Assembly (NCBI RefSeq): GCF_039905635.1
Contig: NZ_CP157000.1
Location: forward strand, 2,418,001 to 2,482,000
DNA from: Microbacterium sp. ProA8
GTDB taxonomy: Bacteria > Actinomycetota > Actinomycetes > Actinomycetales > Microbacteriaceae
DNA length: 64,000 nt
Reading direction: 5' to 3'
This document shows, in pieces, positions 40,801 through 60,583 of this stretch. The notes under the pieces were generated by a model. The model saw nothing but the letters and a program-made list of their open reading frames with translations, ran no database searches and was not told the DNA's origin. The position numbers and the translations under genes were made by a program. Each line of letters starts with the position of its first letter. Positions within the stretch are counted from its first letter, which is position 1.

Positions 40801-40806
40801 GGGTTG

Positions 40807-40879
40807 TGACCCCAGCGGGATTCGAACCCGCGTTACCGCCGTGAGAGGGCGGCGTACTAGGCCGCTATACGATGGGGCC
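40807..40879 (-). tRNA. tRNA-Glu (CTC), second copy in transcription order
   Basis: 73 nt folding as a full cloverleaf: acceptor GGCCCCA/TGGGGTC with one G-T pair, anticodon stem CCGCC/GGCGG with loop CTCTCAC (anticodon CTC, reading GAG), and T loop TTCGAAT. The bases after the discriminator A are CAA, so CCA must be added by enzyme. Same sequence as the copy at 40925-40997. Confidence 0.95.
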
Positions 40880-40924
40880 GCATAGCCTGTCGCCAGCCGA
40901 AGCTGGGACGTGTTGCCTGACTGG

Positions 40925-40997
40925 TGACCCCAGCGGGATTCGAACCCGCGTTACCGCCGTGAGAGGGCGGCGTACTAGGCCGCTATACGATGGGGCC
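40925..40997 (-). tRNA. tRNA-Glu (CTC), first copy in transcription order
   Basis: 73 nt, identical to the copy at 40807-40879, separated by 45 nt. Here the bases after the discriminator A are CCA, so the 3' end is genome-encoded. A promoter with TTGGAG and CATAAT lies upstream (41015-41044) and should serve both copies. Confidence 0.95.
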
Positions 40998-44333: not shown

Positions 44334-45290
44334 CTAAGGAAGGCGGGTGACGGTCACGTCGCCCGCTGGTAGGTCTGCGGGCGTCGGCGCCTGCGAGCCG
44401 GGAAGGGATGCCGCGGCCGCCCCGTACCGGATCGCATGACGCAGGCGCTCCTCGGGGCGTGCCTGTCGCGTCGCGGCGAGCACGTAGCCGGCCAGCGAGC
44501 TGTCGCCCGCACCGACGGTGCTCATCACCCGGATGGGAGGCGGCCCCGCCGTCCACGCGCCGTCGGCGGTGACGAGCACCGCGCCCTGCGCGCCGAGCGT
44601 GACCAGCGCGGCCCCGACGCGAGCCGGCACGAGCGATCGCGCCACGGCGAGGACCGCGGCGGGGTCGGTGCTCTCGAGTCGGGTGCCGGCGAGTTCGGCG
44701 AGCTCATCGTCGTTGGGCTTGATCAGGTCAGGCGCGCCCTCGGCCACGACGGCCGCGAGGGCCGGTCCCGAGGTGTCCACGGCGATCAGCGGGGCTGCGG
44801 CGCCGTGCGCCTCCCGCACGGCACGGGTCACCCGGACGTAGAAGTCGTCGGACACGCCGGGAGGCAGCGAGCCCGCCAGGACGAGCCAGCCTGCGTGGGC
44901 GGATGCCGCCACCGTCGCGTCCACGACGGCCGCGACTTCGTCCGGCGAGAGCCGCGCGCCCGGCAGGTTGAGCTTGGTCGTGACGCCGGCGGGATCCGTG
45001 ATCGCCAGATTGGCGCGGACCCGGCCTCCGACCGGCACGAGACAGGTGTGGAGTGCGGACTCGAGGAGCGTCGCGTCGCGGAGCAGGGCCTGGAACGGGT
45101 CACCGGGGGCGAGCGGCACCACGGCGGTGCACTCCTCCCCCGCGGCCGCGACCGCGCGGGCCACATTGATGCCCTTGCCGCCGGCGTCCTCCCGGGCAGA
45201 GTCCGCGCCCTGCACTTCGCCGACCTGCAGCGACGCCGGCAGTGTGAGCGTCCGGTCCAGGGACGGATGGGCGGTGAGTGTCACGATCAT
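44334..45290 (-). CDS. fruK: 1-phosphofructokinase
   Basis: 318 aa from the ATG at 45290. A PfkB-family kinase converting fructose-1-phosphate to fructose-1,6-bisphosphate. It opens MIVTLTAHPSLDRTLTL, with the substrate motif GGKGINVARAVAAAG and the ATP/catalytic motif VMSTVGAGDSSLAGYV. The ATG overlaps the regulator stop (ATGA). The frame is open far upstream as an antisense/overlap shadow only. Confidence 0.94.
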   Translation of the reverse strand: MIVTLTAHPSLDRTLTLPASLQVGEVQGADSAREDAGGKGINVARAVAAAGEECTAVVPLAPGDPFQALLRDATLLESALHTCLVPVGGRVRANLAITDPAGVTTKLNLPGARLSPDEVAAVVDATVAASAHAGWLVLAGSLPPGVSDDFYVRVTRAVREAHGAAAPLIAVDTSGPALAAVVAEGAPDLIKPNDDELAELAGTRLESTDPAAVLAVARSLVPARVGAALVTLGAQGAVLVTADGAWTAGPPPIRVMSTVGAGDSSLAGYVLAATRQARPEERLRHAIRYGAAAASLPGSQAPTPADLPAGDVTVTRLP

Positions 45291-46066
45291 GCGAGCCAGA
45301 CCTCCACATCGGCCTCCGCGAGCGCGTCGGCCAGTTCGGCGTCGGGTGCGGCATCCGTGACGAGCACGTCGATGTCCGACAGCGAGGCGAACCCGACGAG
45401 CAGCTCTGCGCCGAGCTTCTCGGCGTCCGCGACGACGACCACCCGGCGCGCCGACGCGACGATCGCGCGTTTCACCGCCGCCTCGTCGGGATCGGGCGTG
45501 CTGAGGCCGAACGTCGCCGACACGCCGTTGGTGCCGACGAACGCCACGTCCGGGCGCAGTCCTGCGACCGCCCGCACGGTGTCGGCACCGACGGCCGCGG
45601 CCGTGAGACCGCGCACCCGCCCGCCCACGAGCGAGAGCGAGGCACCGGGGACGGCGGCGAGCGCGTGACCGAGGGTGAGCGAGTGGGTGACGACCTCCAT
45701 GTGCCCGCGTGCGACGCGCGGCGCGAGCGCCGTGGCCACGGCAGCGGTGGTCGTGCCGGCGTCGAGGAAGACCGAGCCGGTGAAGTCCGGACCGAGCGCA
45801 TCGAGAGCGCGCCGGCCGATGGCCTCTTTGGCGCGGCCGTGATGCTCGAGGCGCTCGGCGAGCGAAGGCTCGCGCGTGCTGGCGCGCTCCCGCCCGACGG
45901 CGCCGCCGTGCACGCGACGCAACGCGCCACTGGACTCGAGGTGATCGAGGTCTCGGCGGATGGTCTCTGTGGTGACGTCGAAGCGCTCGGCGAGTTCGAC
46001 CACACCCACCCGGCCCTGCGCAGCCAGCAGCAACTCGATCTGCTCGTGGCGCTCCGTCGCGTACAT
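45287..46066 (-). CDS. DeoR-family regulator of the fructose operon
   Basis: 259 aa from the ATG at 46066. N-terminal HTH (VVELAERFDVTTETIRRDLD) and a C-terminal DeoR sugar-phosphate sensor domain (SVFLDAGTTTAAVATAL; LVGGRVRGLT). First gene of the operon and overlapping fruK, so it probably represses its own operon and is released by fructose-1-phosphate or a related sugar phosphate. Two 12-bp direct repeats overlap its promoter (46085-46116). Confidence 0.93.
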   Translation of the reverse strand: MYATERHEQIELLLAAQGRVGVVELAERFDVTTETIRRDLDHLESSGALRRVHGGAVGRERASTREPSLAERLEHHGRAKEAIGRRALDALGPDFTGSVFLDAGTTTAAVATALAPRVARGHMEVVTHSLTLGHALAAVPGASLSLVGGRVRGLTAAAVGADTVRAVAGLRPDVAFVGTNGVSATFGLSTPDPDEAAVKRAIVASARRVVVVADAEKLGAELLVGFASLSDIDVLVTDAAPDAELADALAEADVEVWLA

Positions 46067-47104: not shown

Positions 47105-49081
47105 TCACTGGCTGCTCAGCACCTCGGTCGCCGCGATCTTCAGCACGCCACCCTCGTCGGTGAAGCGGTACGCGGTGACCTCTTCCGCCACCCGGCCGTC
47201 GCGGAAGTAGTAGGTCAGCGTCGCCTGCCCGGTGTCGGGTCCCGTGGCGCGGACGTCGGAGATCGAGACGTCGGAGATCTGCGACCAGAAGGCGTCGTAC
47301 CCGCCGCGGCCACCGGCATGATTCTCCTGATAGTCGGCGGTCATCAACGGCCAGGCGCTGTCGCGATTCTCCGGCATCATCGCGTAGTACCCCGAGATCG
47401 TGTCGACCACGCGCTGCTCAGGCGACACCGGCGCGGGCTCCGGTGTCGGCTCCGCTTCGGGCGGCGCCGACTCAGCGGGCGCGGGCGCGACGACCTCGGG
47501 TTCGGGCGTCTCCTCGGCCGGGCTCGTCTCCTCGGCCGGGGTCGACACCGAGGTCGGTGCGGGCGTCGGATCCGCCTCCGGCTGGACGCCCGGCCACAGC
47601 AGGCTGAACAGCAGGACGGCACCGACCCCCACCGCCCCCAGCAGGATCAGCGCGCCGGCGATGCGACCCCGACGACGGCGGCGCGGAGGCCGGGGAGGCT
47701 CGTCAGGAGGGGGCGCGGTCGTCCATGACGGCGCGGTGCCGATCGCACCCACCGCCGCGCCGGCGGGCGCGGCCGGACGCAGCGGCTCCGTCTCGGCCGT
47801 CGGAGCCTCGTGCCGGGTGGGCTGATCGACGGCGATGGTCTTCCCGGTCGGCAGCCGGACGGTCGACGAGTCTGCGGGTAGCGGAGGAACGGGCGGTGGC
47901 CCGGGCGGAGACCCGGCAGCGGCGGGGAGCGTCGGCGGCGTAGGCGAGCCGGGATCCGGCTCCTCGAGCCCTCCGTCCTCGACCGGGATCGTCGGCGGCG
48001 TAGGCGAGCCGGAATCCGGCTCCTCGAGCCCGGCGTCCTCGACCGGGATCGTCGGCGGCGTAGGCGGGCCGGAATCCGGCTCCTCGAGCCCGGCGTCGTC
48101 GACCGGGATCGTCGACGACGCGTCGGCGGCGTGCGCGGTGGTCGATGGCGTGGAAGCGTCCTCCGCCACGGTCGCAGCGTCGGCGTCAGCGATCCCGCCG
48201 ACGGCGGCCGCATCGAATCCGAGTGCGACGAGACCCACCGAGACCTCCCGGGCGGCGGCGCTCTCGCGATGCACGGACTCCAGCGCATCGGCGACCGACG
48301 CCATGGTCGGGCGCCGCTTGGGCTGGGAGGCGAGCATCTTGCGCAGCAGCGGCGTGAGCGGGCCGGCGCGCTTCGGTGCCGCGTACCCGCCTCTCGCGAC
48401 TTTGTGGAGGAGGGCGATGGAGTTCTTGTCGGTGCCGAACGGCGGCTGGCCCTCGACCATCGCATAGAGGGTGGACCCGAGCGAGAAGACATCGGAGGCG
48501 AAGCTCGTCGGCAGTCCGCGCGCCACTTCAGGGGCGAGATAGGCCGGGGTGCCGTGGACCATGCCCGTCGCGGTGAGCGACGCGTCACCCAGGGCATGCG
48601 AGATGCCGAAGTCGCTGATCAGCGCCGAACCGTCGCCCGCGATGAGGATGTTCCCGGGTTTCACGTCACGGTGGACGATCTTGAGCGTGTGTGCGGCGGC
48701 CAGCGCGGACGCGACCTCCGCCCCGATGCGCGCCGCCGCGGCCGGCGAGAGCGGGCCGTGTTCGCGCAGGAGCTCGGAGAGCGGCGTGGACTCGATGAGC
48801 TGCATCACGATGCAGGGCTGCCCGTCGTGCTCCACCACGTCGAAGACGGTGACCGCGTGGGGGTGGTGCAGGCCCGCGTTGATCCGGGCCTCGCGCATCG
48901 CCCGATCCGTCGCGAGCTGGCGCTCGCCGTCGGTCAGCTCCGGCTGAGTACGCAGCATCTTCAACGCGACCGGTCGGCGCAGGCGCGAGTCCCAGGCCTG
49001 CCATACGATGCCCATCCCGCCCGCGCCCAGCATCTTGACGAGCCGATAGCGGTCGGCGACGAGGGCGGTAGGAGTACTCAT
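47105..49081 (-). CDS. Membrane Ser/Thr protein kinase with NTF2-like extracellular domain
   Basis: 658 aa. PknB-type kinase at ~11-270: glycine loop LGAGGMGIVWQAW, catalytic HRDVKPGNIL, DFGISH and APEVARG. A Pro/Glu/Asp-rich cytoplasmic linker holds three 20-residue repeats (IPVEDAGLEEPDSGSPTPP type). One membrane helix is near ~480-500 (IAGALILLGAVGVGAVLLF). A Pro/Glu stalk and an NTF2/SnoaL-like C-terminal domain (VVDTISGYYAMMPENRDSAW ... GQATLTYYFRDGR) follow. No PASTA repeats, so the signal is probably not peptidoglycan. ATG start at 49081. Next to the MFS-cNMP-patatin gene. Confidence 0.9.
   Translation of the reverse strand: MSTPTALVADRYRLVKMLGAGGMGIVWQAWDSRLRRPVALKMLRTQPELTDGERQLATDRAMREARINAGLHHPHAVTVFDVVEHDGQPCIVMQLIESTPLSELLREHGPLSPAAAARIGAEVASALAAAHTLKIVHRDVKPGNILIAGDGSALISDFGISHALGDASLTATGMVHGTPAYLAPEVARGLPTSFASDVFSLGSTLYAMVEGQPPFGTDKNSIALLHKVARGGYAAPKRAGPLTPLLRKMLASQPKRRPTMASVADALESVHRESAAAREVSVGLVALGFDAAAVGGIADADAATVAEDASTPSTTAHAADASSTIPVDDAGLEEPDSGPPTPPTIPVEDAGLEEPDSGSPTPPTIPVEDGGLEEPDPGSPTPPTLPAAAGSPPGPPPVPPLPADSSTVRLPTGKTIAVDQPTRHEAPTAETEPLRPAAPAGAAVGAIGTAPSWTTAPPPDEPPRPPRRRRRGRIAGALILLGAVGVGAVLLFSLLWPGVQPEADPTPAPTSVSTPAEETSPAEETPEPEVVAPAPAESAPPEAEPTPEPAPVSPEQRVVDTISGYYAMMPENRDSAWPLMTADYQENHAGGRGGYDAFWSQISDVSISDVRATGPDTGQATLTYYFRDGRVAEEVTAYRFTDEGGVLKIAATEVLSSQ
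47941..48120. repeat. Three tandem 60-bp coding repeats in the kinase linker
   Basis: Units begin at 47941, 48001 and 48061 and match closely, with few substitutions. They encode three 20-residue Pro/Glu/Asp repeats in the kinase linker. The exact 60-bp period keeps the frame, so copy number can change without inactivating the gene. Confidence 0.9.
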
Positions 49082-49218: not shown

Positions 49219-52200
49219 TCAGCGGACAGCGCCGCCGGACAGGTCGCCGCCGGTCTGGTCCAGGAGAGCCCGGGCGGCCGCGCGACCGGACTCGACCAGT
49301 CGGTCGAATTGGTCGAACTCCAGGAATCCGGCTCCCATCGAATGCGGGGTCAGGACCCATGCGCCCAGCCTCTGGGCGCCGGCCGCGTCTCCGCCGTTGA
49401 TCAGGAAAGTGCGCATCATCGTCTCGCCCAGCGCAGGCACGCGCACCGGTCGCGGTGGCTGGCCAGGTGCGACAGTCCGGCCGCTGGCGGCCGAGATGTT
49501 CACGGCGATGATGGGGCCCTCTGCCCGTTCGGTCACGGTGTCGACCGGGAGGTTGTCGAGCACGCTGCCGTCGACGAGCAGCCGACCGTCGCTGACGATC
49601 GGCGTGAAGACCACCGGAAGGCGTGACGAGGCCTTGATGGCGTCGACCATGGGCCCGGCGCGGTGCACCACGGCCGACCGCTTGACGAGATCGGTGCTGA
49701 CGCACCGGAATCCTCTCGGCAGTTCCTCGAGGCGCCAGTCCCCGTAGGTGCGCACGAGCGCCCGCTGCACCCGCTTGCCCCGAATGAGAGAAGTGCGCGG
49801 CAGCCCGTAGTCGCCGAACATGTCGTGCCGCACGAATTCACGGTAGGCCGCATCGCCGACCTCGGCCGCGCTCGCGCCGGTGGCGTAGAGGCCGCCGATG
49901 AGGGCGCCCATGCTGGTGCCCGCGACCCTGTCGACGTGTATGCCGGCCGCCTCGAGTTCGATGAGGACTCCGATGTGGGTGAGCGCCCGTGCTCCCCCAC
50001 CGCCGCATACGAGCGCCAGCGATCTGCCCGCCAGCCTGTCCACCAGACCACGGATGGCAGGGGGTATCCCGGTGGCCGTCACATCGCCCTGTGTGAGTTC
50101 GCTGAAACGCCACGGATCCACCCCATCGAGCCACGCCTGCCGTGCCCGCCGCGTCGCGCTGTCGGCGTCGCCGATCAGGACGAGCTCCGGGCGACGTGCC
50201 ATCTCAGGTCGGGTGTCGCTCGGAGAATCGGCCGTCCGGCCGACCAGCACCACGGTGTCGGCCTCGCGGACGCAGCGGGCGACCCAGTCGTCGTGACCGG
50301 CGGCGACGAGGAGGACCAGCTGATTCGCACTCTCGGCGCGATCGATCTCCTCGGGGGTTCGGGGGCCGCGCAGGACCTCGACTCGAAGATGCGCCGAAAT
50401 GCCGCGATGCAGCAGCGCCGTCACCTCCTCGACCGGTGCGTGCGCATCCGCGCCGACGACCGCCACCAGGCTCGGACGTGCCGCATGACGCGTTGTGGGC
50501 GGGCTTGCGTCGGCGAGCTGATGCGCCAGGGCCGTCACCAGGGCAGAGAGTGCCGCCGGGTTCTGACCGATCGCCTCGTCGAGCACCGAGCGAGGCACCT
50601 CGAGCACGCGGCAGTCCCGCCGCGCCCGGATGGATGCCGAGCGCAGGCCGCCGGTGAGGAGAGCCAGCTCTCCGATCACGGCGCCCGGCCCCAGTTCGCG
50701 GACGACCGCTCCCCCGATGACGACCTCTGCGCGGCCGGCGAGGAGCACGAACATCGACGAGGCGGGAGCCCCCTGTTCCAGCATCCACTCACCCGCCGGC
50801 ACGGTCCGCCGCGGAGCCGTGGCCTCGATGTGCCGACGGACGTCGGCAGGCAGCCGGCCGAAGAGCGATTCCTCGAGCGGCGGAAGGGTACGGCGCAGCA
50901 GCACATTGCGGTCCGCCGCCGGCTCTTGGAACTTCGAAAGATCCGTCGACTCGACCGCGAGGTCCTCGGTCGAAGACCGCACCCGCCCGAGGAACAGTGT
51001 GATCACGGCGCCCGCCATGAAGGACGCGATGCACAGCATCCAGCCCTCGCGGAGATCCTCCACGACAGTGAGCGGGGTGGGCGTCCCCAGGATCACCACC
51101 AGCAGCGCCACGCCGATCGTGCCGCCGGTCTGGCGGGCGCTGGAGATCACGGCCGAGGCTGTCGCGTAGCGTCCGCCCGGCTGGGTCGCGAGAGTGGATG
51201 CCGCCAGCAGCGGCAGCGTCGCGCCCACGCCGATGCCGCTGAGCACCTGACCGGGCAGCCATGCCCCCCAGAAGTCCGGCGTGACGTCGACCGCGGTGAG
51301 GTACCAGACGAATCCCAACCCCCACACGATGAACCCGGCGACGATGATCCACCGGTACCCGAAGCGCGTCGCGACGGGTTCCAGAGCGCCTGCGGTGATC
51401 GCGGCCACGAGCGCGCCGGGGACCAGCGCGAGGCCGGCCTCCAGGACCGAGTACTGCCAGACGTACTGCAGCCACAGCACGTTGGTGAGCAGGTAGGCGA
51501 AGAACCCGACGCCGGCGACGAGCGTCGCGATGTTGGCGACGAGGAATGGCCGGCTGCGCATCATGGCGAGATCCAGCACCGGCACCGGGTGCTTCATCGA
51601 GCTGGCGACGAATGCAGCGAACAGCACGAGGGCGCCGCCGATCACCAGCCACAGCGTGACGCTCGCGGCCCCCCACTCGTCGCCCTTGATGATCGCGAGG
51701 GTCGTCAGGCCCAGCGCCCCGGCGAGCAGGACGGCACCGCGCAGGTCGGGAATGCGCCGGCGTCCCGGCGCCCGGCTGTTCACGAGCAGGCGACGACCGA
51801 GCCACCAGGCGAGGATTCCCAGCGGCAGGTTGATCCAGAACGCCCAGCGCCAGCCGCCGGCCTCCACGAGGAGCCCGCCGATCGGCGGGCCGAGACCCGC
51901 CGCAACAGCAGCGGCTGCCGCCCACAGTCCAACGGCCCGCGCCCGCTTGCCCGCGGGAGCCCCCTCGATCACCACGGCCAGCGATGCCGGCACCAGCATC
52001 GCCGCGCCCAGGGCCTGCACCACCCGGGCGGCGACGAGCAGTGCCACCGACGGCGCCACCGCGCACGCCAGGGATGCCAGCGTGAACAGGACCACCCCGA
52101 AGAGGTAGAGCCGACGGCGCCCCATCACGTCGCTGAGACGGCCGAAGACGATCATGAACGACGCGAACACGATGTTGTAGGCGTTCAGCACCCAGGAGAT

Positions 52201-52404
52201 CGTGCCGATGGACTCGTCCGGGAAGTCCTCGCGCATGCTGGGGAACGCGATGTTCACGATCGTCGCGTCGAGGAACGCCAGCAGCGCCCCGAAGGACGCC
52301 ACGAGCAGCACGGTGCGCCCGGGGATGCGGCTGCCCCGCACCACGGGGCGCGGCGCTTCGCTGAGCGGTCCCGAACCGGCATCAGCACGAGACTCGATCG
52401 CCAT
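49219..52404 (-). CDS. MFS transporter - cNMP-binding domain - patatin phospholipase fusion
   Basis: 1061 aa from the ATG at 52404. Residues ~30-470 are a DHA2/EmrB-QacA-type exporter with about 14 hydrophobic segments (LDATIVNIAFPSMREDF; GLGPPIGGLLVEAGGWRWAF). Residues ~500-620 are a cNMP-binding domain: the phosphate cassette IGELALLTGGLRSA keeps Glu579 and Arg588. A ~150-residue linking domain follows, then a patatin lipase: oxyanion loop GGGGARALTHIGVL (~800), nucleophile Ser831 in AGTSMGAL and Asp945 in DGSVLDNLPV (DGS instead of DGG/DGA). cNMP plus patatin is the neuropathy-target-esterase/RssA arrangement; the transporter addition is unusual. A regulated membrane lipase/exporter is inferred. 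Adenylate cyclase is encoded two genes away. Confidence 0.9.
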   Translation of the reverse strand: MAIESRADAGSGPLSEAPRPVVRGSRIPGRTVLLVASFGALLAFLDATIVNIAFPSMREDFPDESIGTISWVLNAYNIVFASFMIVFGRLSDVMGRRRLYLFGVVLFTLASLACAVAPSVALLVAARVVQALGAAMLVPASLAVVIEGAPAGKRARAVGLWAAAAAVAAGLGPPIGGLLVEAGGWRWAFWINLPLGILAWWLGRRLLVNSRAPGRRRIPDLRGAVLLAGALGLTTLAIIKGDEWGAASVTLWLVIGGALVLFAAFVASSMKHPVPVLDLAMMRSRPFLVANIATLVAGVGFFAYLLTNVLWLQYVWQYSVLEAGLALVPGALVAAITAGALEPVATRFGYRWIIVAGFIVWGLGFVWYLTAVDVTPDFWGAWLPGQVLSGIGVGATLPLLAASTLATQPGGRYATASAVISSARQTGGTIGVALLVVILGTPTPLTVVEDLREGWMLCIASFMAGAVITLFLGRVRSSTEDLAVESTDLSKFQEPAADRNVLLRRTLPPLEESLFGRLPADVRRHIEATAPRRTVPAGEWMLEQGAPASSMFVLLAGRAEVVIGGAVVRELGPGAVIGELALLTGGLRSASIRARRDCRVLEVPRSVLDEAIGQNPAALSALVTALAHQLADASPPTTRHAARPSLVAVVGADAHAPVEEVTALLHRGISAHLRVEVLRGPRTPEEIDRAESANQLVLLVAAGHDDWVARCVREADTVVLVGRTADSPSDTRPEMARRPELVLIGDADSATRRARQAWLDGVDPWRFSELTQGDVTATGIPPAIRGLVDRLAGRSLALVCGGGGARALTHIGVLIELEAAGIHVDRVAGTSMGALIGGLYATGASAAEVGDAAYREFVRHDMFGDYGLPRTSLIRGKRVQRALVRTYGDWRLEELPRGFRCVSTDLVKRSAVVHRAGPMVDAIKASSRLPVVFTPIVSDGRLLVDGSVLDNLPVDTVTERAEGPIIAVNISAASGRTVAPGQPPRPVRVPALGETMMRTFLINGGDAAGAQRLGAWVLTPHSMGAGFLEFDQFDRLVESGRAAARALLDQTGGDLSGGAVR

Positions 52405-52509
52405 GGGGTCAGCATGCGCGAGGGAAGCCCATCGAAACCTCAGTGAGCTCACGGATCTTTTCCGGGCCCGCGCGCGCGAGGCTGAGAGCACCTGACACGA
52501 GGAGCGGCC

Positions 52510-53475
52510 ATGTCATCTCGCCTGTTCCGGGCCGGACACCGGCTCGTCGCCTTCGTCGGCCTGGCACTGCTCGCGCTGCTGGCGCCACTTGCTCTCGCCG
52601 AGCCGGCCTCCGCGACCAACATCCCCAAGCCCACCTCGATCACCGTGACCGCCCGCACCGATCCGGGTATCGCCGGGCAGCTGACGGGCGTGCCCGCGGC
52701 ATCGATGCCGGCGGTCCTCGCCGCCGTCGGCACGCCGTTCGTGGTCGAGGTCTCGCTGTGGAACGGCACGACACCGGCGACCTACCCCAGCGCGACGGCC
52801 GTCAGCCTCACGGCACCAGGCCCCGGGCAGCTGGCCACCACGCAGGCGACGATTCCGGCAGGCGCCTCGACCGTGACCATCTCCACGTCGTACTCCAGCC
52901 CCGCCGCGGCGCTTCAGATCACCGCGGGCACAGTGAACAACAAGTCCGTGCTCACCGGCACGACGGCATCCTTTCCGATAGATCTCGTCCTGAACCTCCT
53001 GGATGGCGAGTCCGCCGCGCTGAAGGACGGCACGGCGGGCGCAGACGGCAGCGCGTGCACGACGGTGGATGCCGCACACCCGATGTGCGGTCTGCTCTCG
53101 CTGCCGAGCGGCGCCGGCGGCCGAGTCGCGTTGTCCCTCGGGGTGTGCCCAGCCGGGCAGACCTGCCGCGACGGTGCACTCGTCACCCAGTTCATCGCGG
53201 ACATGGCCGATCGGTACACGCGCACCAGCCCCGCGCGGATGACCATCGTGTGCGACAAGTCCCTCTGCGGCGGCGGCGGCGTGCCGAAGTACCGCGCCCT
53301 GTGGTCCCCGACAGGGACCACTGAGCTGGTGACGACGCCCACGTGCCCTGCCCAGGGTGTCATCGGCGCCGATCAGGAGTTCTGCACCGACACCGTCTCC
53401 AGCAGGCGTGACAACGCCGGCGATCTGCGACTCGTCGTGCTCTTCCTGGAGGACGTGCGCGGCACGATCAAGTAG
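52510..53475 (+). CDS. Secreted Cys-rich protein of unknown function
   Basis: 321 aa, ATG with GAGGAG 4 nt upstream. A Sec signal peptide (VAFVGLALLALLAPLALAEP) probably cleaves after PASA near residue 35. The next ~125 residues look like a beta-sandwich (SITVTARTDPGIAGQ; ATTQATIPAGASTVTIST). The C-terminal half has eight Cys in pairs (MCGLL, GVCPAGQTC, IVCDKSLC, FCTD), suggesting disulfides. No family recognised. Divergent from the MFS fusion; only 9 nt separate its stop from that of the convergent cyclase gene. Confidence 0.75.
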   Translation: MSSRLFRAGHRLVAFVGLALLALLAPLALAEPASATNIPKPTSITVTARTDPGIAGQLTGVPAASMPAVLAAVGTPFVVEVSLWNGTTPATYPSATAVSLTAPGPGQLATTQATIPAGASTVTISTSYSSPAAALQITAGTVNNKSVLTGTTASFPIDLVLNLLDGESAALKDGTAGADGSACTTVDAAHPMCGLLSLPSGAGGRVALSLGVCPAGQTCRDGALVTQFIADMADRYTRTSPARMTIVCDKSLCGGGGVPKYRALWSPTGTTELVTTPTCPAQGVIGADQEFCTDTVSSRRDNAGDLRLVVLFLEDVRGTIK

Positions 53476-53484
53476 CGGCGACGC

Positions 53485-56400
53485 TCACCTCACGACGCCC
53501 AGCGAGTCGAGCATCCGCGTCGAATCGGCTCGCAGCCCGTCGTCCTGCGTCGCGTCGGCGAGTGCGAGGCCGAGCAGTGCCGGCTCGAATCCTCCGTACG
53601 TCCCGGTGGTGCGCGCCAGGCCCGCTCGAGCGGCAGACGCGGCCTGCTCGGCGCGCCCCTGGGCCAGCAGGGCGTGCGCGCGCACCCGGTGCAGACGGGC
53701 GAGTGCGTCGGGCGCCTTCGCCTGCGCAGGCGGGATGGCCTCGTCCAGCAGTGCGAGCGCTTCGGTGGTCCGCCCGTCAGCTGCCAGGGCGTCGGCGTGC
53801 GCGGCGTCCAGCAGCGCCACCTCCGTGGCGAGATCGAGACCGGCCAGCACCAGGCGGGCCTGCCGGAACGACGCCCACGCTCGATTCGGATCGCCCGTCG
53901 CGGCCTGCGCCCGAGCCTGCTCGCGCAGCGCCAGCCCCACCAGCTCCTCGTCGTCCGCGCGGCGTGCCAGCTGCAGCGACGCTGCCAGTACGGGCAGCGC
54001 CTCGCCGCATCGGCCCTGCGCGACCAGCACGTCCCCCCGGTTGTAGAGGGCGGTCGCCTCGTCGGCGTCGTCGCCGAGGCGGTGGAAGCGCGGGGCGACC
54101 TCGGCGAAGGCGTCGACCGCCTCGTCCCAGCGGCCCCCGTTGTACGCGTCGATCGCGAGGTTGTTGAGCGTCAGCGCCTGGCCGCTGAGATCGTCGAGCT
54201 CCTCATACAGGCCGAGCGCGATCTGCCCGTACGGGCGATCCTCGGCCATGGCGGACGCACCGTACGACAGGTGCAGCGCGTTGCAGGCGTTCGCGAGCAC
54301 CTCCTGGTCTCCCGAAGCCTCAGCGGACGCCACGGCGCGACGGCCCCACTGCACCGCCGCGTCGTCCCGGCCCTGCAGATGCAGGCAGAAGCCGTACCAG
54401 GTCGCGATCCGTGCTCTCACCGCATCCGCAGCGGTCCCGTCCACGTCGTCGAGCACACGCATCGCTCGGGTCAACTGCGCGAGGGCGGCGCGGTAGCGCC
54501 CCAGGCGCAGGGTGATCCGCGCCTCCTTGTGGAGCGTGTCGGCCGTGGCGACGGGGTCGGCGAGCATGTCGCGGCGGGCGCGCCGCAGCGCAGCCAGTGC
54601 TCCGGCCGCATCTCCGGACATGTCGAGACACTCGCCGAGCCAGACCGCCACGCTCGGTCGCTCGGCGGGGCTGTCCGCCAGGTGCGCGGCGCTGTCGAGA
54701 GCGCGCGCGAAGAAGGCCGCCGCCTGCGCGTGGGCGTACTTCGCTCGCGCCTCCTCGCCGGCCCGAAGGGACGCGGACCAGGCCTCGCCGTGAAGTCCGG
54801 CGGCGTGGAAGTGCAGGCTGAGCAGATCCGCGCCGGCGAAGCGGCCGGCGCGAGCCTGAAGGGCGACCGCGACGCGTTCATGCATGTTGCGACGCACGCG
54901 GTACGGGAGCCCGGCATAGGCGACGTCCCGCACCATCATGTGCCGGAACTCGAACTCGCCGTCGTCCGCGATGCGCACGAACTCGTGCAGCCGCGTGGCG
55001 ATGTCGTCGCCGGTGATCCGTGACCCATGCACGTCCGCCAGGATGCCGCCGTCGAAGCGGACGCCCAGCACGGCCGCGAGCCGCAGCAGGGTGCGGTCGG
55101 CGGCGCCGAGCCGGTCGATGTCGACGAGCAGCAGGGCCTCCACCGAACCAGGAAGGTCGTCGGTGGCGTCACCGGTCCGCACGCTCGTGGCGAGCGACGT
55201 GAGGAACAGCGGGTTTCCGTTGGCGCGCTCGGCCATCGCAGAGATCCTGTGACGACTCGGGCGTGAGACGCCCATCGCGGACTCGAGGAGTTCGAGCGCC
55301 GTCTCGGGCGGCACACCGTCGAGTGCGATCCGTCTGTCGTGCGGGCCCGTGAGGCGCGGCACGTAGCCCACCGTGGTCGCGCGCCGGATGACGATGACGC
55401 ACCAGGGATGACGCGGCACCTCGTCCTCGAAGCGATGCAGCAGCGCAGCCGACGCCTCGTCCATCAGATGGGCGTCCTCGATCACCACCATGACCGGTGC
55501 GGTGAGGCGAGCGGCCAGCAGCGCGATCGTGGTGTCTTCGATCCGACCGCGGCGGAAACGGGGGTCGAGGTCGTCGACCTCGCGTGTCGCGGGCATGTCG
55601 AGGCCGAGCGGTGCGCCGAGCAACGGCAGCCACGGCAGGAGATCCGGCGCGGCCTGCCGCACCACCTCGGCCAGCACGACCGCGGCAGTCGCGGGCTGCT
55701 CGTGCACACCGATGCCGAGAACCTGGCGCAGCAGCATCCCGAGCGCGGCGTACGGGGTGCCGCTGTCGTAATTGCTGACCGTGACGGCGACCCTGCGCAT
55801 GGGCGCCGGGATGCTGAGCTCCGCGACGAGCCGCGATTTGCCGATCCCGGGGTCGCCGACGATTTCGAGGACCGCTCCCCGGCCTGCGGATGCACCGGCC
55901 AGCGCAGCCGCCATCTCGGTGAGCTCCGCCTCGCGCCCGAGGAACGGGATCCTCACCTCTGCGGTCTCTCGCCGCTCCCCGCGGAGGATGGCGGCTTCGA
56001 CCGGCGCACGCTTGCCCTTCACCGTGAAGGGAGCCAGCGGCGCCGCGTCGAACACCGGACCGGCATCGGCCAGGACCCGGGTCGTGGCGACCACTTCTCC
56101 TGCTTCCGCGCGGCCGAGCAGACGCGCCGCGAGGTTCACGGCATCTCCCTTGACCGAGTAGGTGCGCCGTTGTGGCGGCCCGAAGTCCCCGGCGAAGACG
56201 TGACCCGCGTTCACCCCGACACGGACCGCGAGTGCGCCCCGGAAACCGGCGATCTCGTGGGCGGTACGCAGCATCCGTTCGGCATCGCGGCCCGCGCTGC
56301 GCGGCGCGCCCGCAGTGAGCATGATCTTGCCGCCGTCGACCGCGATGTCGGACTCGAAGAAGGTCGCACCGTGTTTGCGGCATGCCCGCTGCACGGCGAC

Positions 56401-57321
56401 GATCACCTCGTGGATCGCCTCGGTCGCGGCGGCCGCGCCGCCGCGCTCGCGCAGCAGCGCGTCCGTGCCGGCGAACTGGACGAATCCGACGGCGATCGGT
56501 CGATGCTCGGGTTCCGCTGCTCCCGACTCGATGTGCGCCCGGATGCCGGGCGGCAGGGTTCCTGCGACGCTCGCGATGCCGGCCGCCGCGGCGTCGGACC
56601 GGCGGCGTGCGGGTGGGGACCCGGGTTCGGCGTGAGGCTTGCCGGCGGCAGGTTGCGGGCGCGACCGCAGCAGCCGAGCGGTCGAGCCCGCGCCGTCGAG
56701 GTCGATCTGCGCTCCCAGCGCTCGGGACGGCAGCCGCGCGACCGTCGTCGTGCTGAGCAGGATCTGGCCGGCAGCGGCGGCTTGTTCCACCAGCGCGAGG
56801 TGGCTGACCTGCGGCCCGGCGACGATCAGCTCGCGGTGGCTGACGGGATCGCCGACCAGGAAGACGTCGAATCCGGCGGCGCCCCCAGCCGCGGGGTCGC
56901 CATCGGCGCTGTGGATGCCGATCGACATGCGCAGCGGCGCCGACGCCAGCATCCCGGCGCCGCGGGCGCGCACCAGGTCGCGCAGCGCCGCCCGCATCCC
57001 GTGTGCCGCCCGCGCCGCACAGCCGGCGTGGTCGTCGCCACGGAACAGGAGAAGCACCGCGTCACCGCCCCACTTCAGCAGGTCGGCACCGTCCTCGAAC
57101 GCCGGAGCCAGGACGGTCGCGAACGTCTCATCGAGTGTGTCGCTCAGCAGCTCGGCGCCGATCCGCCCCCGTCGCGCGAGTCGCTCCGTCAGCCGGGTGA
57201 AGCCGGAGATGTCGGCGAAGACCATCGTTCCCGGCACCCGTCGGTGGCGCTCCTCCGGGGCGGCACTCAGCCACTCCGCCACGAGGCGCGAGGCGAAGGG
57301 CTCCGCAGGTTCCTGTGTCAC
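53485..57321 (-). CDS. Soluble-adenylyl-cyclase-like protein: two cyclase domains, STAND NTPase, TPR-like helices
   Basis: 1278 aa, GTG start. Cyclase domain 1 (~30-215) has metal-binding Asp37 (VFADISGFTRLTER) and Asp87 with adenine-type Lys83 (LLKWGGDAVLLLF), but no NxxxR. Cyclase domain 2 (~275-445) has Gln282 in place of the first Asp (GFVQFAGTD) yet supplies KGDAVNLAAR: adenine-selecting Asp393, Asn396 and transition-state Arg400. Together they would give one composite ATP site, as in mammalian sAC. An NTPase follows (Walker A GDPGIGKSRL ~490; VVIEDAHLMDEAS) and ~450 residues of helical repeats. Predicted cytoplasmic adenylate cyclase controlled by ATP-dependent conformational change. 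Confidence 0.9.
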   Translation of the reverse strand: MTQEPAEPFASRLVAEWLSAAPEERHRRVPGTMVFADISGFTRLTERLARRGRIGAELLSDTLDETFATVLAPAFEDGADLLKWGGDAVLLLFRGDDHAGCAARAAHGMRAALRDLVRARGAGMLASAPLRMSIGIHSADGDPAAGGAAGFDVFLVGDPVSHRELIVAGPQVSHLALVEQAAAAGQILLSTTTVARLPSRALGAQIDLDGAGSTARLLRSRPQPAAGKPHAEPGSPPARRRSDAAAAGIASVAGTLPPGIRAHIESGAAEPEHRPIAVGFVQFAGTDALLRERGGAAAATEAIHEVIVAVQRACRKHGATFFESDIAVDGGKIMLTAGAPRSAGRDAERMLRTAHEIAGFRGALAVRVGVNAGHVFAGDFGPPQRRTYSVKGDAVNLAARLLGRAEAGEVVATTRVLADAGPVFDAAPLAPFTVKGKRAPVEAAILRGERRETAEVRIPFLGREAELTEMAAALAGASAGRGAVLEIVGDPGIGKSRLVAELSIPAPMRRVAVTVSNYDSGTPYAALGMLLRQVLGIGVHEQPATAAVVLAEVVRQAAPDLLPWLPLLGAPLGLDMPATREVDDLDPRFRRGRIEDTTIALLAARLTAPVMVVIEDAHLMDEASAALLHRFEDEVPRHPWCVIVIRRATTVGYVPRLTGPHDRRIALDGVPPETALELLESAMGVSRPSRHRISAMAERANGNPLFLTSLATSVRTGDATDDLPGSVEALLLVDIDRLGAADRTLLRLAAVLGVRFDGGILADVHGSRITGDDIATRLHEFVRIADDGEFEFRHMMVRDVAYAGLPYRVRRNMHERVAVALQARAGRFAGADLLSLHFHAAGLHGEAWSASLRAGEEARAKYAHAQAAAFFARALDSAAHLADSPAERPSVAVWLGECLDMSGDAAGALAALRRARRDMLADPVATADTLHKEARITLRLGRYRAALAQLTRAMRVLDDVDGTAADAVRARIATWYGFCLHLQGRDDAAVQWGRRAVASAEASGDQEVLANACNALHLSYGASAMAEDRPYGQIALGLYEELDDLSGQALTLNNLAIDAYNGGRWDEAVDAFAEVAPRFHRLGDDADEATALYNRGDVLVAQGRCGEALPVLAASLQLARRADDEELVGLALREQARAQAATGDPNRAWASFRQARLVLAGLDLATEVALLDAAHADALAADGRTTEALALLDEAIPPAQAKAPDALARLHRVRAHALLAQGRAEQAASAARAGLARTTGTYGGFEPALLGLALADATQDDGLRADSTRMLDSLGVVR

Positions 57322-57395
57322 GGCGTCCGCCGCCCTCTAGAATCTGCCCAGGAGTGCCGCAGCGTCGTCCTGGGGGGCGATGGGGAGGCGAACGA

Positions 57396-60245
57396 ATGCA
57401 CACCACCATGGGGCCGACGGTGCCTGTGCAGCGCCCGCCGCGCGTCTTCCTCGGCCGTGACGCCGAACTCGCCATGCTCGTCGCCGCGAGCGTCAGCGTC
57501 GCCGGCAGGTTCATCCTGGTGCACGGCGAAGGGGGAATCGGGAAGACCACGCTGCTCGCCGCGGCGCTCGAGCGGATACCGCCGGACCACACCGTGCTGC
57601 ACGCGTCGGCCGATGCGATGGACCGACGCCGCACCCACGGCCTGCTGCTGGACGCCTTCGCGCCGATGCTCGATGAGGACGGGCGGCGCACCGTCGCACG
57701 GCAGAACGAGCATGCGGTCGGCGAGCGACTGCTGTCGCTGATCGACATGGTCGCCACGGACGCGACCGTGCTCGTGCTCGAGGACCTGCAGTGGGCGGAT
57801 GCCGCATCGCTCCGGCTGCTGGCACGTCTGAGCCGCACGCTCGAGCAGCTGCCGCTGGTCATCCTCGGATCGATGCGCACACAGGCCCGTCACGAGACAC
57901 CGCCCGAACTCGATCATCTGCTGAGCGTACTCAGCGAGCGCGACCTGCTGGTGCCGATGGAGCTCGGCCCGCTCGACGGCGCGACCTGCATAGCGATCGC
58001 GGAGCGCCTGACCGGCGGGAGAATCGGCGGTGCGCTGGAGCGCTACGTCGGGGCGGCGGGCGGCAACCCCCTGTTCCTCACCGAGATGATCCGCGCGCTC
58101 CGGCGTGACGGGGCGTTCACGATCGGCGACGGGGGTGAGACGCTGCTGGACTCCCCGCTCGGCCCCTCGCCGTCGCTCGCGATGGTGATGATGCGCCACC
58201 TCAGCCACCTGAGCGTGCCGACACGGGAGCTGCTGACCTCGGCGGCGCTGCTCGGCACCCGCTTCTCGGTAGCCCACCTGCGGATCGTCGCCGACCAGCC
58301 GGTGACCACCCTCGTGCCGCTCCTGCGTGAGTCGTTCGCCGCGGGGTTCCTCGAGGAGATCGACCAGGATCTGGTCGGCTTCCGGCACGAGCTCATCCAG
58401 GAGGTGCTGCTGCACGATCTGCCCGCGGCGGTACGGGGCGGGCTTCGACGCGAGATCGCCCTGCTCCTGGACGCCGCGCAGGTCCCGCCCGAGATCGTGG
58501 CGGCACATCTGCTGCAGGCGCCGACCTCTCCCGAAGACCTGAGCTGGATGCTGCGTCTCGCTCAGAGCACCGCCGTGATCGCACCCGCCACCGCGACCGA
58601 GCTCTGGGGCCGCGTCGTCGAGGCGGTCGCGCCCGGCGACCCCCTGAGCGTGCGCGCCACCGCGGGCCTGGCGCGTGCGGCGCTGAGCGCGGGTCACGCG
58701 GCGCAATCGACCGCTCTCGCCGAGAGCGCGCTGAGCCACGAGGTCCCTGCGGATGTGCTGGCGGAACTCTCGGCGACCTACACCCATGCGCTGATGCAGC
58801 AGCACCGCAACATCGCCGCACGCGACGAGTCCGAGAAGTACGCCGTCGCCGACGTCCTGGAGCCTGCGGACCGAGCGGCCCATCTCGCCTTCGCAGGCTG
58901 GCCGCGCTTCATGCTCGGCGACCTCGCGGGGGCGGAACGGCTGGCGCGGGAGGGTGCCGCCATGGCTGCCGCGGCGGACAACCCCGGAGCCGAGGTGATG
59001 GCTCTCACGCTGCATGGGCAGATCGCCAATCTGCAGGGTGATCTCGACGACGCGATCACCCTGCTGACGTCGGCCACGCAGCGTGCCGACCGACACCTCC
59101 GTCTCGCGTCGATCGAGTCGTTCCCGCACGCGCTTCTGGCGCTGGCGCTGGCCGATGCGGGCCGCACCGCCGACGTGTTCGAGCTGCTTCAGCGCAGTGT
59201 GCAGGTGTCGGAGGAGTTCGGGTACCGCACCGGCGTGCTCGCCGCCCATGCATTCGGCGCACAGGTGCGCGGCCACATCAGCAGCCTCTCCGACATCTCT
59301 GCCGAGCTCGACGCCCATCGTTCGATGGTCGGGTCGATGGATGTGCGGATGGGCGGTCCCATCCTCGGGCTGCGGACCTGCGTGGTCGCGCGCCAGGACG
59401 GCCCCGACGCGGCGCGGGAGTGGGCGGCCGGGCTGGACCCGGTACCCGCCCGCGCAACCTGGGCCGGCCGAGGGCGCAGCTGGATCTGGCTCGGGCTGAG
59501 CCGCCTCACGTCGGATGGCCGCGACGACGCCGCGGCCCTCGACGTGCTGTGGAGCGGATGGCGAGAGCTGCACGAGGTGGACATGCTGATGGACTGCGCC
59601 GAGCTCGGGCTCGCGCTGGTCGACGTCGCTGCAACGATGGCGGAGTCCGATTCCCCGGAGCGGGCCGTCGCACGCGAGCGCGCGCTCGAAGTGGTCGACG
59701 TCCTGACGAACCTCGCCGACCGCAATCCGGCGGTCTCCCACCTGCGAGCCACTGCGCTGGCCGTGCGGGGGCGCGCGACGAAGAGCGCTGATCCACTCCT
59801 CGAGGCGACCCGGATGCTGGCGGGAAGCCCGCGGCGCCTCGATCATGCACGAATCGCGGAGCTCGCCGCCGGCGCGCTGCCCTCTCGGGGCGACGAGCGC
59901 CGGGTGCTGGCCGAGGCATCGCTGCGCTCGTACGCCGAGGTCGGGGCCGACTACGACGTGGTGCGCGCGCGAGCGTCGTTCCGGCGCGCGGGCATCCAGA
60001 TCCGCACACACCCGCGCACCCGGCCGACCTCCGGCTGGGACGCCCTCACCCGCACCGAGGAGCGGATCGCGGGGCACGTCGCCACGGGCGCCACCAATCC
60101 CGAGATCGCACAGGCGCTGAGCGTGTCGCGACGAACGGTCGAGACGCATGTGTCAAACGTCCTCGCCAAGCTCGGGCTCCGCTCGCGCACCGAGCTGGCG
60201 GTCCTCGTCTCGCGGCGTGCCGACGATCTGGGACAGCACGGCTAA
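57396..60245 (+). CDS. LuxR-family STAND (LAL-type) transcriptional regulator
   Basis: 949 aa from the ATG at 57396, with GGGAGG ~8 nt upstream. N-terminal NTPase with Walker A GEGGIGKTTLL (residues 44-54) and Walker B VLVLEDLQWADAAS (~130). A long helical sensor region follows, then a C-terminal LuxR HTH (LTRTEERIAGHVATGATNPE; RRTVETHVSNVLAKLGLRSR) at ~880-945. Divergent from the cyclase gene across 74 bp, and both start with a GR(E/D)AEL NTPase opening, which suggests joint regulation. A TAGAAT -10-like box is at 57338-57343. Target genes and inducer are unknown. Confidence 0.9.
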   Translation: MHTTMGPTVPVQRPPRVFLGRDAELAMLVAASVSVAGRFILVHGEGGIGKTTLLAAALERIPPDHTVLHASADAMDRRRTHGLLLDAFAPMLDEDGRRTVARQNEHAVGERLLSLIDMVATDATVLVLEDLQWADAASLRLLARLSRTLEQLPLVILGSMRTQARHETPPELDHLLSVLSERDLLVPMELGPLDGATCIAIAERLTGGRIGGALERYVGAAGGNPLFLTEMIRALRRDGAFTIGDGGETLLDSPLGPSPSLAMVMMRHLSHLSVPTRELLTSAALLGTRFSVAHLRIVADQPVTTLVPLLRESFAAGFLEEIDQDLVGFRHELIQEVLLHDLPAAVRGGLRREIALLLDAAQVPPEIVAAHLLQAPTSPEDLSWMLRLAQSTAVIAPATATELWGRVVEAVAPGDPLSVRATAGLARAALSAGHAAQSTALAESALSHEVPADVLAELSATYTHALMQQHRNIAARDESEKYAVADVLEPADRAAHLAFAGWPRFMLGDLAGAERLAREGAAMAAAADNPGAEVMALTLHGQIANLQGDLDDAITLLTSATQRADRHLRLASIESFPHALLALALADAGRTADVFELLQRSVQVSEEFGYRTGVLAAHAFGAQVRGHISSLSDISAELDAHRSMVGSMDVRMGGPILGLRTCVVARQDGPDAAREWAAGLDPVPARATWAGRGRSWIWLGLSRLTSDGRDDAAALDVLWSGWRELHEVDMLMDCAELGLALVDVAATMAESDSPERAVARERALEVVDVLTNLADRNPAVSHLRATALAVRGRATKSADPLLEATRMLAGSPRRLDHARIAELAAGALPSRGDERRVLAEASLRSYAEVGADYDVVRARASFRRAGIQIRTHPRTRPTSGWDALTRTEERIAGHVATGATNPEIAQALSVSRRTVETHVSNVLAKLGLRSRTELAVLVSRRADDLGQHG

Positions 60246-60501: not shown

Positions 60502-60511
60502 ATTTCGTTGG

Positions 60512-60583
60512 CTGGGGTACCTGGACTCGAACCAAGAACAAAGGTACCAGAAACCTCCGTGTTGCCAATTACACCATACCCCA
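60512..60583 (-). tRNA. tRNA-Gln (CTG)
   Basis: 72 nt, plus an encoded CCA at 60509-60511. Acceptor TGGGGTA pairs with TACCCCA. Anticodon stem GAGGT/ACCTT with loop TTCTGGT gives CTG, reading CAG. T loop TTCGAGT. Its own promoter and terminator flank it, downstream of gltX on the same strand. Confidence 0.95.

Follow-up and report, generated by a model that had tools for sequence, protein, structure and literature searches.

A carrier-lipase fusion with a cyclic-nucleotide-binding domain and its frequent linkage to class III cyclases in actinobacteria

Introduction

Why should a lipase and a cyclic-nucleotide-binding (cNMP) domain be built into the chain of a membrane transporter, and from where might such a protein receive its signal? 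The question is raised by an open reading frame in the window, i.e. the whole 64,000-nucleotide stretch of the Microbacterium sp. ProA8 genome analyzed here, for which the original prediction had proposed a new joining of a major facilitator superfamily (MFS) exporter to a cNMP-patatin module. The fusion as such is no novelty, since proteins of this kind are already annotated in many actinobacteria, some of them under the NCBI name 'MDR family MFS transporter/patatin-like phospholipase family protein'; the present analysis adds its cyclase context. None of the papers listed by our literature search appeared to deal with the triple fusion or with its cyclase linkage, although such a study may exist in print, and no characterization of the NCBI-named proteins was found among them.

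Results

The gene of the MFS-cNMP-patatin fusion protein occupies positions 49219 to 52404 of the reverse strand and is one open frame of 1061 amino acids from its ATG; its longest start, a GTG at 52491, gives 1090 amino acids. A Pfam search found all three domains on this single chain, as had been predicted, each scoring above its cut-off: MFS_1 (residues 37-268, the better of two stretches; 163.5 bits against 33.4), cNMP_binding (residues 533-614; 63.4 bits against 27.5) and Patatin (residues 798-956; 95.3 bits against 27.7). A join created by misassembly or frameshift is disfavored because 68 relatives with 52-83% identity align along the entire chain and because no interruption of the frame is seen in a genome assembled as one contig, and with all three domains present in 119 of 120 homologues, among the matches listed, such an artefact was ruled out.

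The transporter part (positions 50986 to 52308, reverse strand; approximately residues 33-473) is of the DHA2 type, as indicated by Pfam MFS_1, NCBIfam and PDB matches, by sequence similarity across the carrier and by the presence of MFS motifs. Its top NCBIfam models are drug exporter or drug-efflux families, but the TIGR00711 (EmrB) score of 225.3 bits falls just below the cut-off of 230.2, and hence the protein is not filed as a member of the EmrB subfamily. PDB matches comprise EfpA, which is the best (alignment 40-441, about 400 residues, 145 bits), EmrB and an antiseptic resistance protein. To our knowledge, none of the EfpA/EmrB/QacA-type DHA2 transporters, which the fusion resembles in that its MFS part aligns with EfpA, carries a cNMP or patatin domain. 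A hydropathy scan revealed 13 peaks, the last by residue 473, and a 14th helix would lie around residues 185-205 on alignment to EfpA and EmrB, both of which we take to have 14 helices; the 14-helix exporter fold proposed originally is therefore likely rather than proven. In aligned rows with identities to the window's fusion as low as 37%, the MFS residues D46, G88, D92 and R96 are invariant across the 57 that extend to them, and all 58 carry R127, G172 and P173, which makes it unlikely that the carrier is a dead anchor.

The cNMP domain (PF00027; positions 50563 to 50808, reverse strand) and the patatin domain (PF01734; positions 49537 to 50013, reverse strand) show the order and motifs of neuropathy target esterase (NTE)-type enzymes, with the cNMP domain N-terminal of a patatin domain that presents a glycine-rich oxyanion motif (GGGGAR at 801), a G-x-S-x-G serine (GTSMG at 829) and a DG[GAS] aspartate (VDGS at 944). 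The residues named beforehand sit exactly where they had been placed: Glu579 and Arg588, the pair of a CRP/PKA-type phosphate-binding cassette, within GELALL and LRSAS, and the Ser831/Asp945 dyad within GTSMG and VDGS. All 58 aligned rows have E579, R588 and A590, while S831 and D945 are each found in 56 of the 57 rows reaching them. One Mycobacteriaceae metagenome-assembled genome (L052) has lost both catalytic residues and retained E579 and R588. Standalone cNMP-patatin homologues were found at 37-43% identity. What stands of the original reading is thus an exporter-type MFS joined to an NTE-type cNMP-patatin module with conserved binding and catalytic residues; the novelty of the joining does not.

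Full-length relatives of the fusion occur in Mycobacterium szulgai, M. gastri and M. ostraviense, among others, and we take M. tuberculosis Rv3239c and Rv3728 to be triple fusions too. In print, Rv3728 appears both as a hypothetical lipase/esterase and in connection with efflux (PMC10865251). A tree of MFS domains groups the fused ones in a single starred clade (99; 51 rows), apart from seq­uences of seven same-genome MFS paralogues, and the sole 'MFS-only' row within it, L075, is a gene cut by a contig end. A tree of the C-terminal module, by contrast, places the fusions of L043, L047, L049 and L053 outside its main fused clade. Both are quick trees with long branches and may reflect either a single fusion with later exchange or two separate fusions.

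Upstream of the fusion and on the same strand lies a gene for a soluble adenylyl cyclase (sAC)-like class III cyclase of 1278 amino acids (positions 53485 to 57321). Pfam identifies its second cyclase domain, an AAA_16 domain and TPR repeats, and our own profile identifies both cyclase domains (L096); its PDB matches are CyaB and ADCY10. The order of two cyclase domains followed by AAA and TPR, with the metal Asp pair in the first domain and the Asn/Arg pair in the second, agrees with the sAC build and with the accepted roles of these residues. This cyclase, 1.1 kb from the fusion, is the sole PF00211 match in the genome, so an orphan cNMP domain in a genome devoid of cyclases was ruled out, and the cyclase neighbor that the original prediction had suggested looking for is present here and recurs in other lineages. 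As a CYTH match was also found, at 1808667, the statement that this is the only cyclase holds for Pfam class III; the CYTH family holds other phosphohydrolases besides class IV cyclases. The genome also has three further cNMP-binding matches, and a cyclic nucleotide could thus have receivers other than the fusion.

Between cyclase and fusion, and on the opposite strand, is the gene of a secreted-looking, cysteine-rich protein of 321 amino acids (positions 52510 to 53475, forward strand), and cyclase and fusion need therefore not share a transcript. The putative signal peptide was recognized by inspection; a Pfam search of the protein gave no family match, whereas 41 database matches were obtained, and Cys193, 213, 248, 253, 279 and 292 are invariant over 46 rows. 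Divergent from the cyclase is a LuxR-family regulator with an AAA ATPase domain (positions 57315 to 60245, forward strand; Pfam AAA_16 and GerE; true start unsure), and this LuxR/STAND regulator is present in 12 other loci. The cassette in the window's lineage is completed by these two genes. Membership is uncertain for the Ser/Thr protein kinase encoded downstream of the fusion (positions 47105 to 49072, reverse strand; Pfam Pkinase): of the named loci, L009 alone has a close relative (66%) at the same place, and in six Mycobacterium loci the fusion is followed by other kinases (38-42% across the kinase domain).

The fusion is patchily distributed in the genus, being present in 10 of 295 sampled genomes, and in all 10 a large cyclase is encoded upstream on the same strand. 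Eight of these genus cyclases are 61-69% identical to that of the window over at least 1029 residues, and a ninth (L012), represented by its C-terminal part, is 73% identical. By comparison, 12 large cyclases picked from fusion-free sampled genomes are 32-35% identical to the window's and lie in other contexts; among the genus-sample cyclases compared, relatives with more than 60% identity occur only with the fusion.

For the comparison across actinobacteria, 75 loci were named from the best 80 of 205 confirmed, which had been found through two peptide patterns and include related species that are not independent. Fifty of the 54 loci L009-L062 passed the full-fusion test. Of the other four, L046, L052 and L057 are truncated or incomplete, and the fusion of L061 (M. 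genavense) is broken into two frames and was kept as broken. With full flanks (both at least 9 kb), a cyclase was found within about 10 kb of 23 of 28 fusion loci versus none of eight MFS-only loci, and with at least 10 kb of total flank the figures were 27/41 and 0/15 (Fisher p 5.8e-6). At any flank length, a cyclase lies near 28 of the 50 fusions, a count that includes L038 (a weak, partial match of 30 bits) and L012 (the C-terminal part only), versus 0/21 controls; since the MFS tree puts L075 among the fusions, 0/20 is the stricter control figure, L075 being too short to enter the sets of eight and 15. By our own profile, 22 of the 50 fusion loci have no cyclase, many of them on short contigs. 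Four of these (L021, L024, L028 and L029) combine full flanks with an intact fusion, and the full-flank locus L059, also without a cyclase, is a shortened fusion with a 622-amino acid frame that passed the fusion test by profile span and was counted as a miss.

The build of the linked cyclases varies by lineage, encompassing AAA/TPR (sAC-like), FHA, kinase-AAA, response regulator and CHASE2 proteins. In the linked AAA/TPR cyclases neither metal Asp residue varies across the 21 rows reaching them, and the Asn/Arg pair is present in all 22, while the Lys391 column of the second domain differs in five of 22 rows, Asp393 differs in one of 22 (L044) and Lys83 is replaced by Gln in L054. The cyclase-like part of the Mycobacterium FHA protein was found by our own profile (80-82 bits), and the one such protein tested against PF00211, that of L037, gave no match at E 0.001. 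The profile contains the two domains of the window's cyclase and the cyclase domain of L023, and its matches to these proteins thus arise by construction.

Discussion

The frequent presence of a cyclase next to the fusion suggests a dedicated signaling circuit acting on membrane lipids. We consider it somewhat probable that the fusion is a membrane-tethered, cAMP-responsive (lyso)phospholipase of the NTE type, mounted on a lipid-moving DHA2 carrier and with the neighboring cyclase as its source of cAMP. Domain build, motifs, conservation and linkage are observed as described above; ligand binding, lipase catalysis, substrate, transport direction and coupling are what we infer. The adjoining sAC-like cyclase would make a cyclic nucleotide, most likely cAMP, the binding of which to the cNMP domain would either inhibit the patatin domain or release it from inhibition, and might affect the carrier in the same way. 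The patatin domain would cut or release a lysophospholipid, a fatty acid or a related lipid, which the carrier probably moves across the inner membrane, and the cysteine-rich protein that looks secreted may have its role at the outer face. A role in lipid movement is consistent with the best PDB match of the carrier, since EfpA has been solved with three lipids inside and is proposed to be a lipid flippase in a preprint (PMC10802681). A bolder extension, which we regard as possible but rather doubtful, is that of a horizontally moving, self-contained cAMP circuit, in which a LuxR/STAND regulator, an sAC-like cyclase and a secreted partner accompany a cAMP-gated lipase-carrier coupling hydrolysis to translocation, and in which the cyclase is swapped for FHA or kinase-AAA sensor-cyclases in other actinobacteria.

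EfpA-like DHA2 proteins also include drug pumps, and the MFS part could instead be an ordinary multidrug exporter with a non-lipid substrate, the cNMP-patatin module regulating or repairing the surrounding membrane. Drug-efflux families are indeed its top NCBIfam models. Moreover, PMC2649132 and PMC6300501 list Rv3239c and Rv3728 as efflux pumps, with RIF named for Rv3728. Nevertheless, the fused MFS domains form their own clade (99), apart from the seven same-genome paralogues, and a permanent lipase fusion with cyclase linkage would be unexpected for a plain drug pump, so we deem this unlikely. It seems more improbable again that the carrier is transport-dead and merely anchors a cyclic-nucleotide-controlled lipase, much as the single N-terminal transmembrane helix predicted for eukaryotic NTE/PNPLA6 might (PMC9025805), because the MFS motif residues are invariant over 57-58 rows with identities down to 37%.

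Two further alternatives concern the cyclase, and both appear very improbable. In Pycsar, the PycC cyclase, whose product is a pyrimidine cyclic nucleotide (cCMP or cUMP), acts with PycTIR or PycTM effectors. The cassette shares the layout of a class III cyclase next to a membrane effector with a cNMP domain, which might reflect a defense system in which the cyclase answers phage and the patatin domain of the effector harms the membrane. The patchy presence of the fusion (10/295) would fit, as would PADLOC matches of the cNMP part to PycTIR (49.4 bits), of patatin to phospholipase effectors (22.9 bits), of the cyclase to PycC (30.7 bits) and of the downstream kinase to PD-T4-6 kinases (239.5 bits). 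The PycC matches are weak and partial, however, a kinase match of this sort could perhaps be had with any Ser/Thr kinase, the secreted-looking partner has no PADLOC match, and the window's cyclase is a large double-domain AAA/TPR protein. Both cyclase and effector differ in build from those of Pycsar; in addition, the fusion is kept in several actinobacterial families beside differing cyclases. The remaining alternative, to which we assign the lowest probability, is a mere clustering of signaling genes in the absence of functional coupling. The five full-flank fusion loci lacking a cyclase are in its favor, as are the 15-32 PF00211 matches in each of the seven Mycobacterium genomes searched, which make a cyclase neighbor less surprising in that genus. 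Against it, PF00211 matches are few elsewhere (1-7 in 23 of 25 other genomes searched, 15 in two, and one in the window's genome), the MFS-only controls gave 0/8 and 0/21, and, among the genus-sample cyclases compared, close relatives accompany only the fusion.

Several known systems resemble the fusion in part. The NCBI-named proteins share its three domains and similar length, but the window's lineage differs from the Mycobacterium fusions in its AAA/TPR cyclase and its secreted-looking partner, which was not found in eight Mycobacterium loci examined. LplT-Aas fusions, in which an MFS lysophospholipid carrier is joined to a lipid-remodeling acyltransferase, offer a parallel, with an acyltransferase instead of a lipase and no cyclic-nucleotide domain. 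NTE/PNPLA6 and the bacterial cNMP-patatin proteins, to which Rv2565 presumably belongs as a member of the NTE family, share the succession of a cNMP domain and a patatin Ser-Asp lipase. The use of NTE-type cNMP domains is poorly settled, and we know of few bacterial cAMP effectors besides transcription factors. NTE is described as having three cNMP sites and a single predicted transmembrane helix (PMC9025805), as opposed to the one cNMP domain and whole MFS carrier of the fusion, and the same paper reports that, in HeLa cells, cAMP-raising agents increased both the level of NTE and its esterase activity.

In the window, effector and cyclase adjoin, the genus is culturable and the genome has just one Pfam class III cyclase match, and gating by cAMP of the lipase, the carrier or both is therefore directly testable by two deletions. 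If the circuit reading is true, these proteins would constitute a class of second-messenger-gated lipid flippase-lipases. Given the linkage of the fusion to cyclases, the mycobacterial relatives listed as efflux pumps may instead be signal-controlled lipid enzymes.

Integrity and distribution of the fusion

The gene at 49219-52404 on the reverse strand is read without interruption from an ATG through 1061 codons to the stop, and in its product Pfam places MFS_1, cNMP_binding and Patatin, each far over its own cut-off. The original prediction of an exporter-type transporter, a cNMP domain and a patatin domain in one chain is thus borne out, and Glu579, Arg588, Ser831 and Asp945, which it had singled out, sit where it put them, inside the expected motifs. 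A frameshift or assembly error splitting the frame had been named as what would overturn it; the frame is open and all three domains are present in 119 of the 120 homologues listed (the remaining one is annotated as partial), so that an artefact of assembly or frame is ruled out. These homologues include Microbacterium, Flexivirga, Knoellia, Nocardioides, Marmoricola and Nanopelagicales, the closest named relatives among the matches listed being Microbacterium species, and for some the NCBI product name itself spells out the fusion. The triple fusion is not unique to the window, and the survey of its frequency that had been proposed reveals a patchy distribution across whole genomes: it occurs as one full-length copy in the window's genome (one contig, 4.37 Mb), in 10 of 295 genomes from a sample of the genus and in 3 of 396 from a phylum-wide sample, the window's own counted in both, and at E <= 1e-100 in the window's genome alone among 58 genomes searched.

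The transporter part resembles DHA2 carriers, with EfpA and EmrB as its best solved relatives, and is not assigned to the EmrB subfamily because its TIGR00711 score (225.3 bits) lies slightly below the cut-off of 230.2. In an alignment of the window's protein with 57 proteins from named loci (58 rows in all), every row that extends far enough retains the carrier motif residues and, in the cNMP domain, the phosphate-binding Glu and Arg. The patatin dyad is absent from one row, the oxyanion Gly804 is replaced by Ala in four and Gly829 by Ala in two; the row of locus L046 stops short of the patatin part. The row lacking the dyad is that of a Mycobacteriaceae MAG (L052, 1-2868), where the serine is Ala and the aspartate Ser, with the cNMP residues kept, and which by these substitutions is probably a catalytically dead copy. 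By sequence, the C-terminal half of the fusion belongs to the NTE type: cNMP-patatin proteins that stand alone, about 570 aa long, cover 86-98% of it at 37-43% identity and, between the two domains, the fusion and 16 such proteins have E691 invariant and W707, C711, R713 and D716 in common in at least 90%. The Arg-Ser-Ala order in the cNMP cassette resembles that of CRP, and cAMP is therefore favoured as the predicted ligand.

Linkage to class III cyclase genes

The cyclase gene nearby that the original prediction had thought worth looking for does exist. Upstream of the fusion and on the same strand (53485-57321, reverse) lies a gene for a 1278-aa soluble adenylyl cyclase (sAC)-like protein that combines a pair of cyclase domains (Pfam recognizes the second, a profile of our own both) with an AAA_16 ATPase and TPRs; its best solved matches are CyaB (49 bits) and human ADCY10 (37 bits). 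It is the sole PF00211 (class III cyclase) match in the window's genome, which holds three cNMP-binding matches beyond the fusion. PF00211 is found in 97 of the 295 genus genomes, and a large cyclase lies upstream of the fusion on the same strand in 10/10 fusion-bearing ones, six of which we equated with named loci from identical places and E-values. In eight of the ten only the gene of a secreted-looking protein separates the two; in genomes G151 and G308 the cyclase is about 8 and 11 kb away, measured from the cyclase domain. Eight of the nine other fusion-linked genus cyclases share 61-69% identity with that of the window over at least 1029 residues, and that of locus L012 is 73% identical in its C-terminal part, the only part covered. 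Twelve large cyclases chosen from fusion-free genus genomes are 32-35% identical to it, and none has the fusion, the secreted-looking protein or the LuxR/AAA regulator within 18 kb around it.

The secreted-looking protein (321 aa, 52510-53475, forward) has a signal-peptide-like start by eye, is cysteine-rich and matches no Pfam family; it has 41 database matches, with six cysteines invariant over 46 aligned sequences. Of the 19 named loci with an sAC-like cyclase among the best listed, 15 have it, as does L022, the contig of which is too short to reveal a cyclase; it is absent from the 12 fusion-free cyclase loci and the 21 loci matching just the transporter part (MFS-only). These proteins form a narrow family, seen among the loci compared only near the fusion. 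The gene at 57315-60245 (forward) encodes a LuxR-type regulator that includes an AAA ATPase domain; relatives occur in 12 further loci, incomplete in L011 and, in L045, on the opposite side of the fusion. A Ser/Thr kinase (47105-49072) is left as a candidate cassette member because a close relative is in place only in L009 of the named loci. Elsewhere in the window lie an apparent 1-phosphofructokinase gene behind a DeoR-type regulator, by inspection an ordinary-looking fructose operon (44334-46040, reverse), a tandem tRNA-Glu (CTC) pair (40806-40997, reverse) and a tRNA-Gln (CTG) at 60509-60583.

Linkage across the actinobacteria was assessed in 75 loci whose organisms are named, the best entries of a longer list, by scanning every open frame with a profile of 20 cyclase domains and the window's own two; MFS-only relatives from the same scan served as control. 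Among these best loci, a cyclase is present in the flanks covered of 28 of 50 full fusions; where both flanks span 9 kb or more, 23 of 28 fusions have one, and in the other five, L021, L024, L028, L029 and L059, the profile finds none. Near MFS-only loci it found none (0/21; 0/8 with at least 9 kb on both sides). With total flanks of at least 10 kb, a cyclase accompanies 27/41 fusions among the best loci listed versus 0/15 MFS-only loci (Fisher p 5.8e-6, only a guide because related species are not independent).

The linked cyclases differ in build. Those of the sAC-like AAA/TPR type occur, in varying order and orientation, at 19 of the named fusion loci among the best listed, in Microbacterium, Flexivirga, Knoellia, Nocardioides, Actinotalea, Phycicoccus, Janibacter, Pedococcus, Nostocoides and a Propionibacteriales MAG. 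In five Mycobacterium loci (L037, L039, L058, L061 and L062) a frame of 361-435 aa immediately upstream has, by profile, a cyclase-like C-terminal domain, with putative metal Asp and Asn/Arg residues visible in all five; in L037 Pfam identifies an FHA domain in its N-terminal part and makes no call at 0.001 on the cyclase-like part. Behind the fusion lies a Ser/Thr kinase gene in L037 and L039, and kinase matches are found there in L038, L058, L061 and L062. L037 (6807-14849) carries a putative signalling cassette, with a standalone cNMP-patatin gene, the divergent FHA/cyclase-like protein, the fusion and the kinase consecutively, a similar arrangement being seen in L058, L061 and L062 by profile and tblastn (Pfam was run on L037 only); at L039 no standalone cNMP-patatin gene was seen. 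In Mycobacterium genavense (L061, 9767-13017) the fusion is split into two frames. Downstream of the fusion, a kinase-AAA-cyclase about 1480 aa long is recognized by Pfam in M. gastri (L042) and by similarity in M. ostraviense (L041), where a DegV-family protein (PF02645, 13127-14152) lies between the two; this family binds fatty acids. Two builds occur once each, a response-regulator cyclase 6 kb away in L023 and a CHASE2 cyclase 4 kb away in L049.

In a quick tree of MFS domains, all 50 fused rows fall into one starred clade, apart from seven MFS paralogues in the window's genome; in that of the C-terminal module, 46 of the 50 cluster with one standalone protein, those of L043, L047, L049 and L053 being placed elsewhere. 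Microbacterium fusions adjoin Flexivirga, near Knoellia, in both trees, which together with the 10/295 distribution suggests that the whole cassette may have been transferred into the genus.

Possible function and significance

A preprint (PMC10802681) describes three lipids along the path of EfpA, the nearest solved carrier, and proposes that EfpA is a lipid flippase like MFSD2A; for NTE, reports describe deacylation of phosphatidylcholine and lysophosphatidylcholine (PMC6995513) and, in HeLa cells, a rise in NTE level and activity when cAMP is raised (PMC9025805). With this literature set beside the cyclase linkage, we favour, with some reserve, as the most likely reading a fusion in which cAMP would gate the patatin (lyso)phospholipase, itself coupled to an MFS lipid carrier in the same chain. 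Recurrent pairing with cyclases of unlike build would be expected if the cNMP domain is truly a receiver, and chance clustering, for which the five well-flanked loci without a detected cyclase might be cited, seems the least credible explanation beside the absence of cyclases from MFS-only loci.

A drug pump to which a lipase module was added would accord with the DHA2 resemblance and is an unlikely but serious alternative. That the MFS part is an inert anchor appears less probable still, the carrier motif residues being kept throughout. A Pycsar-like phage defence system, likewise pairing a cyclase with a cNMP effector, is very improbable: PADLOC matches do not exceed 49 bits for the fusion or 31 bits for the cyclase, while the kinase match is strong but unspecific.

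We take Rv3239c and Rv3728 to be triple fusions as well. Both are listed as efflux pumps in print (PMC2649132 and PMC6300501), and Rv3728 also appears among hypothetical lipases/esterases, where a cAMP-signalling review is cited (PMC10865251). The fusion itself is hence an already known kind of protein, of which the literature searched yielded no characterization; nor did that literature, judged mostly from titles and summaries, yield a paper on the cyclase linkage. What merits following is the variant in which a linked cyclase and a secreted-looking partner form a cassette with the fusion.
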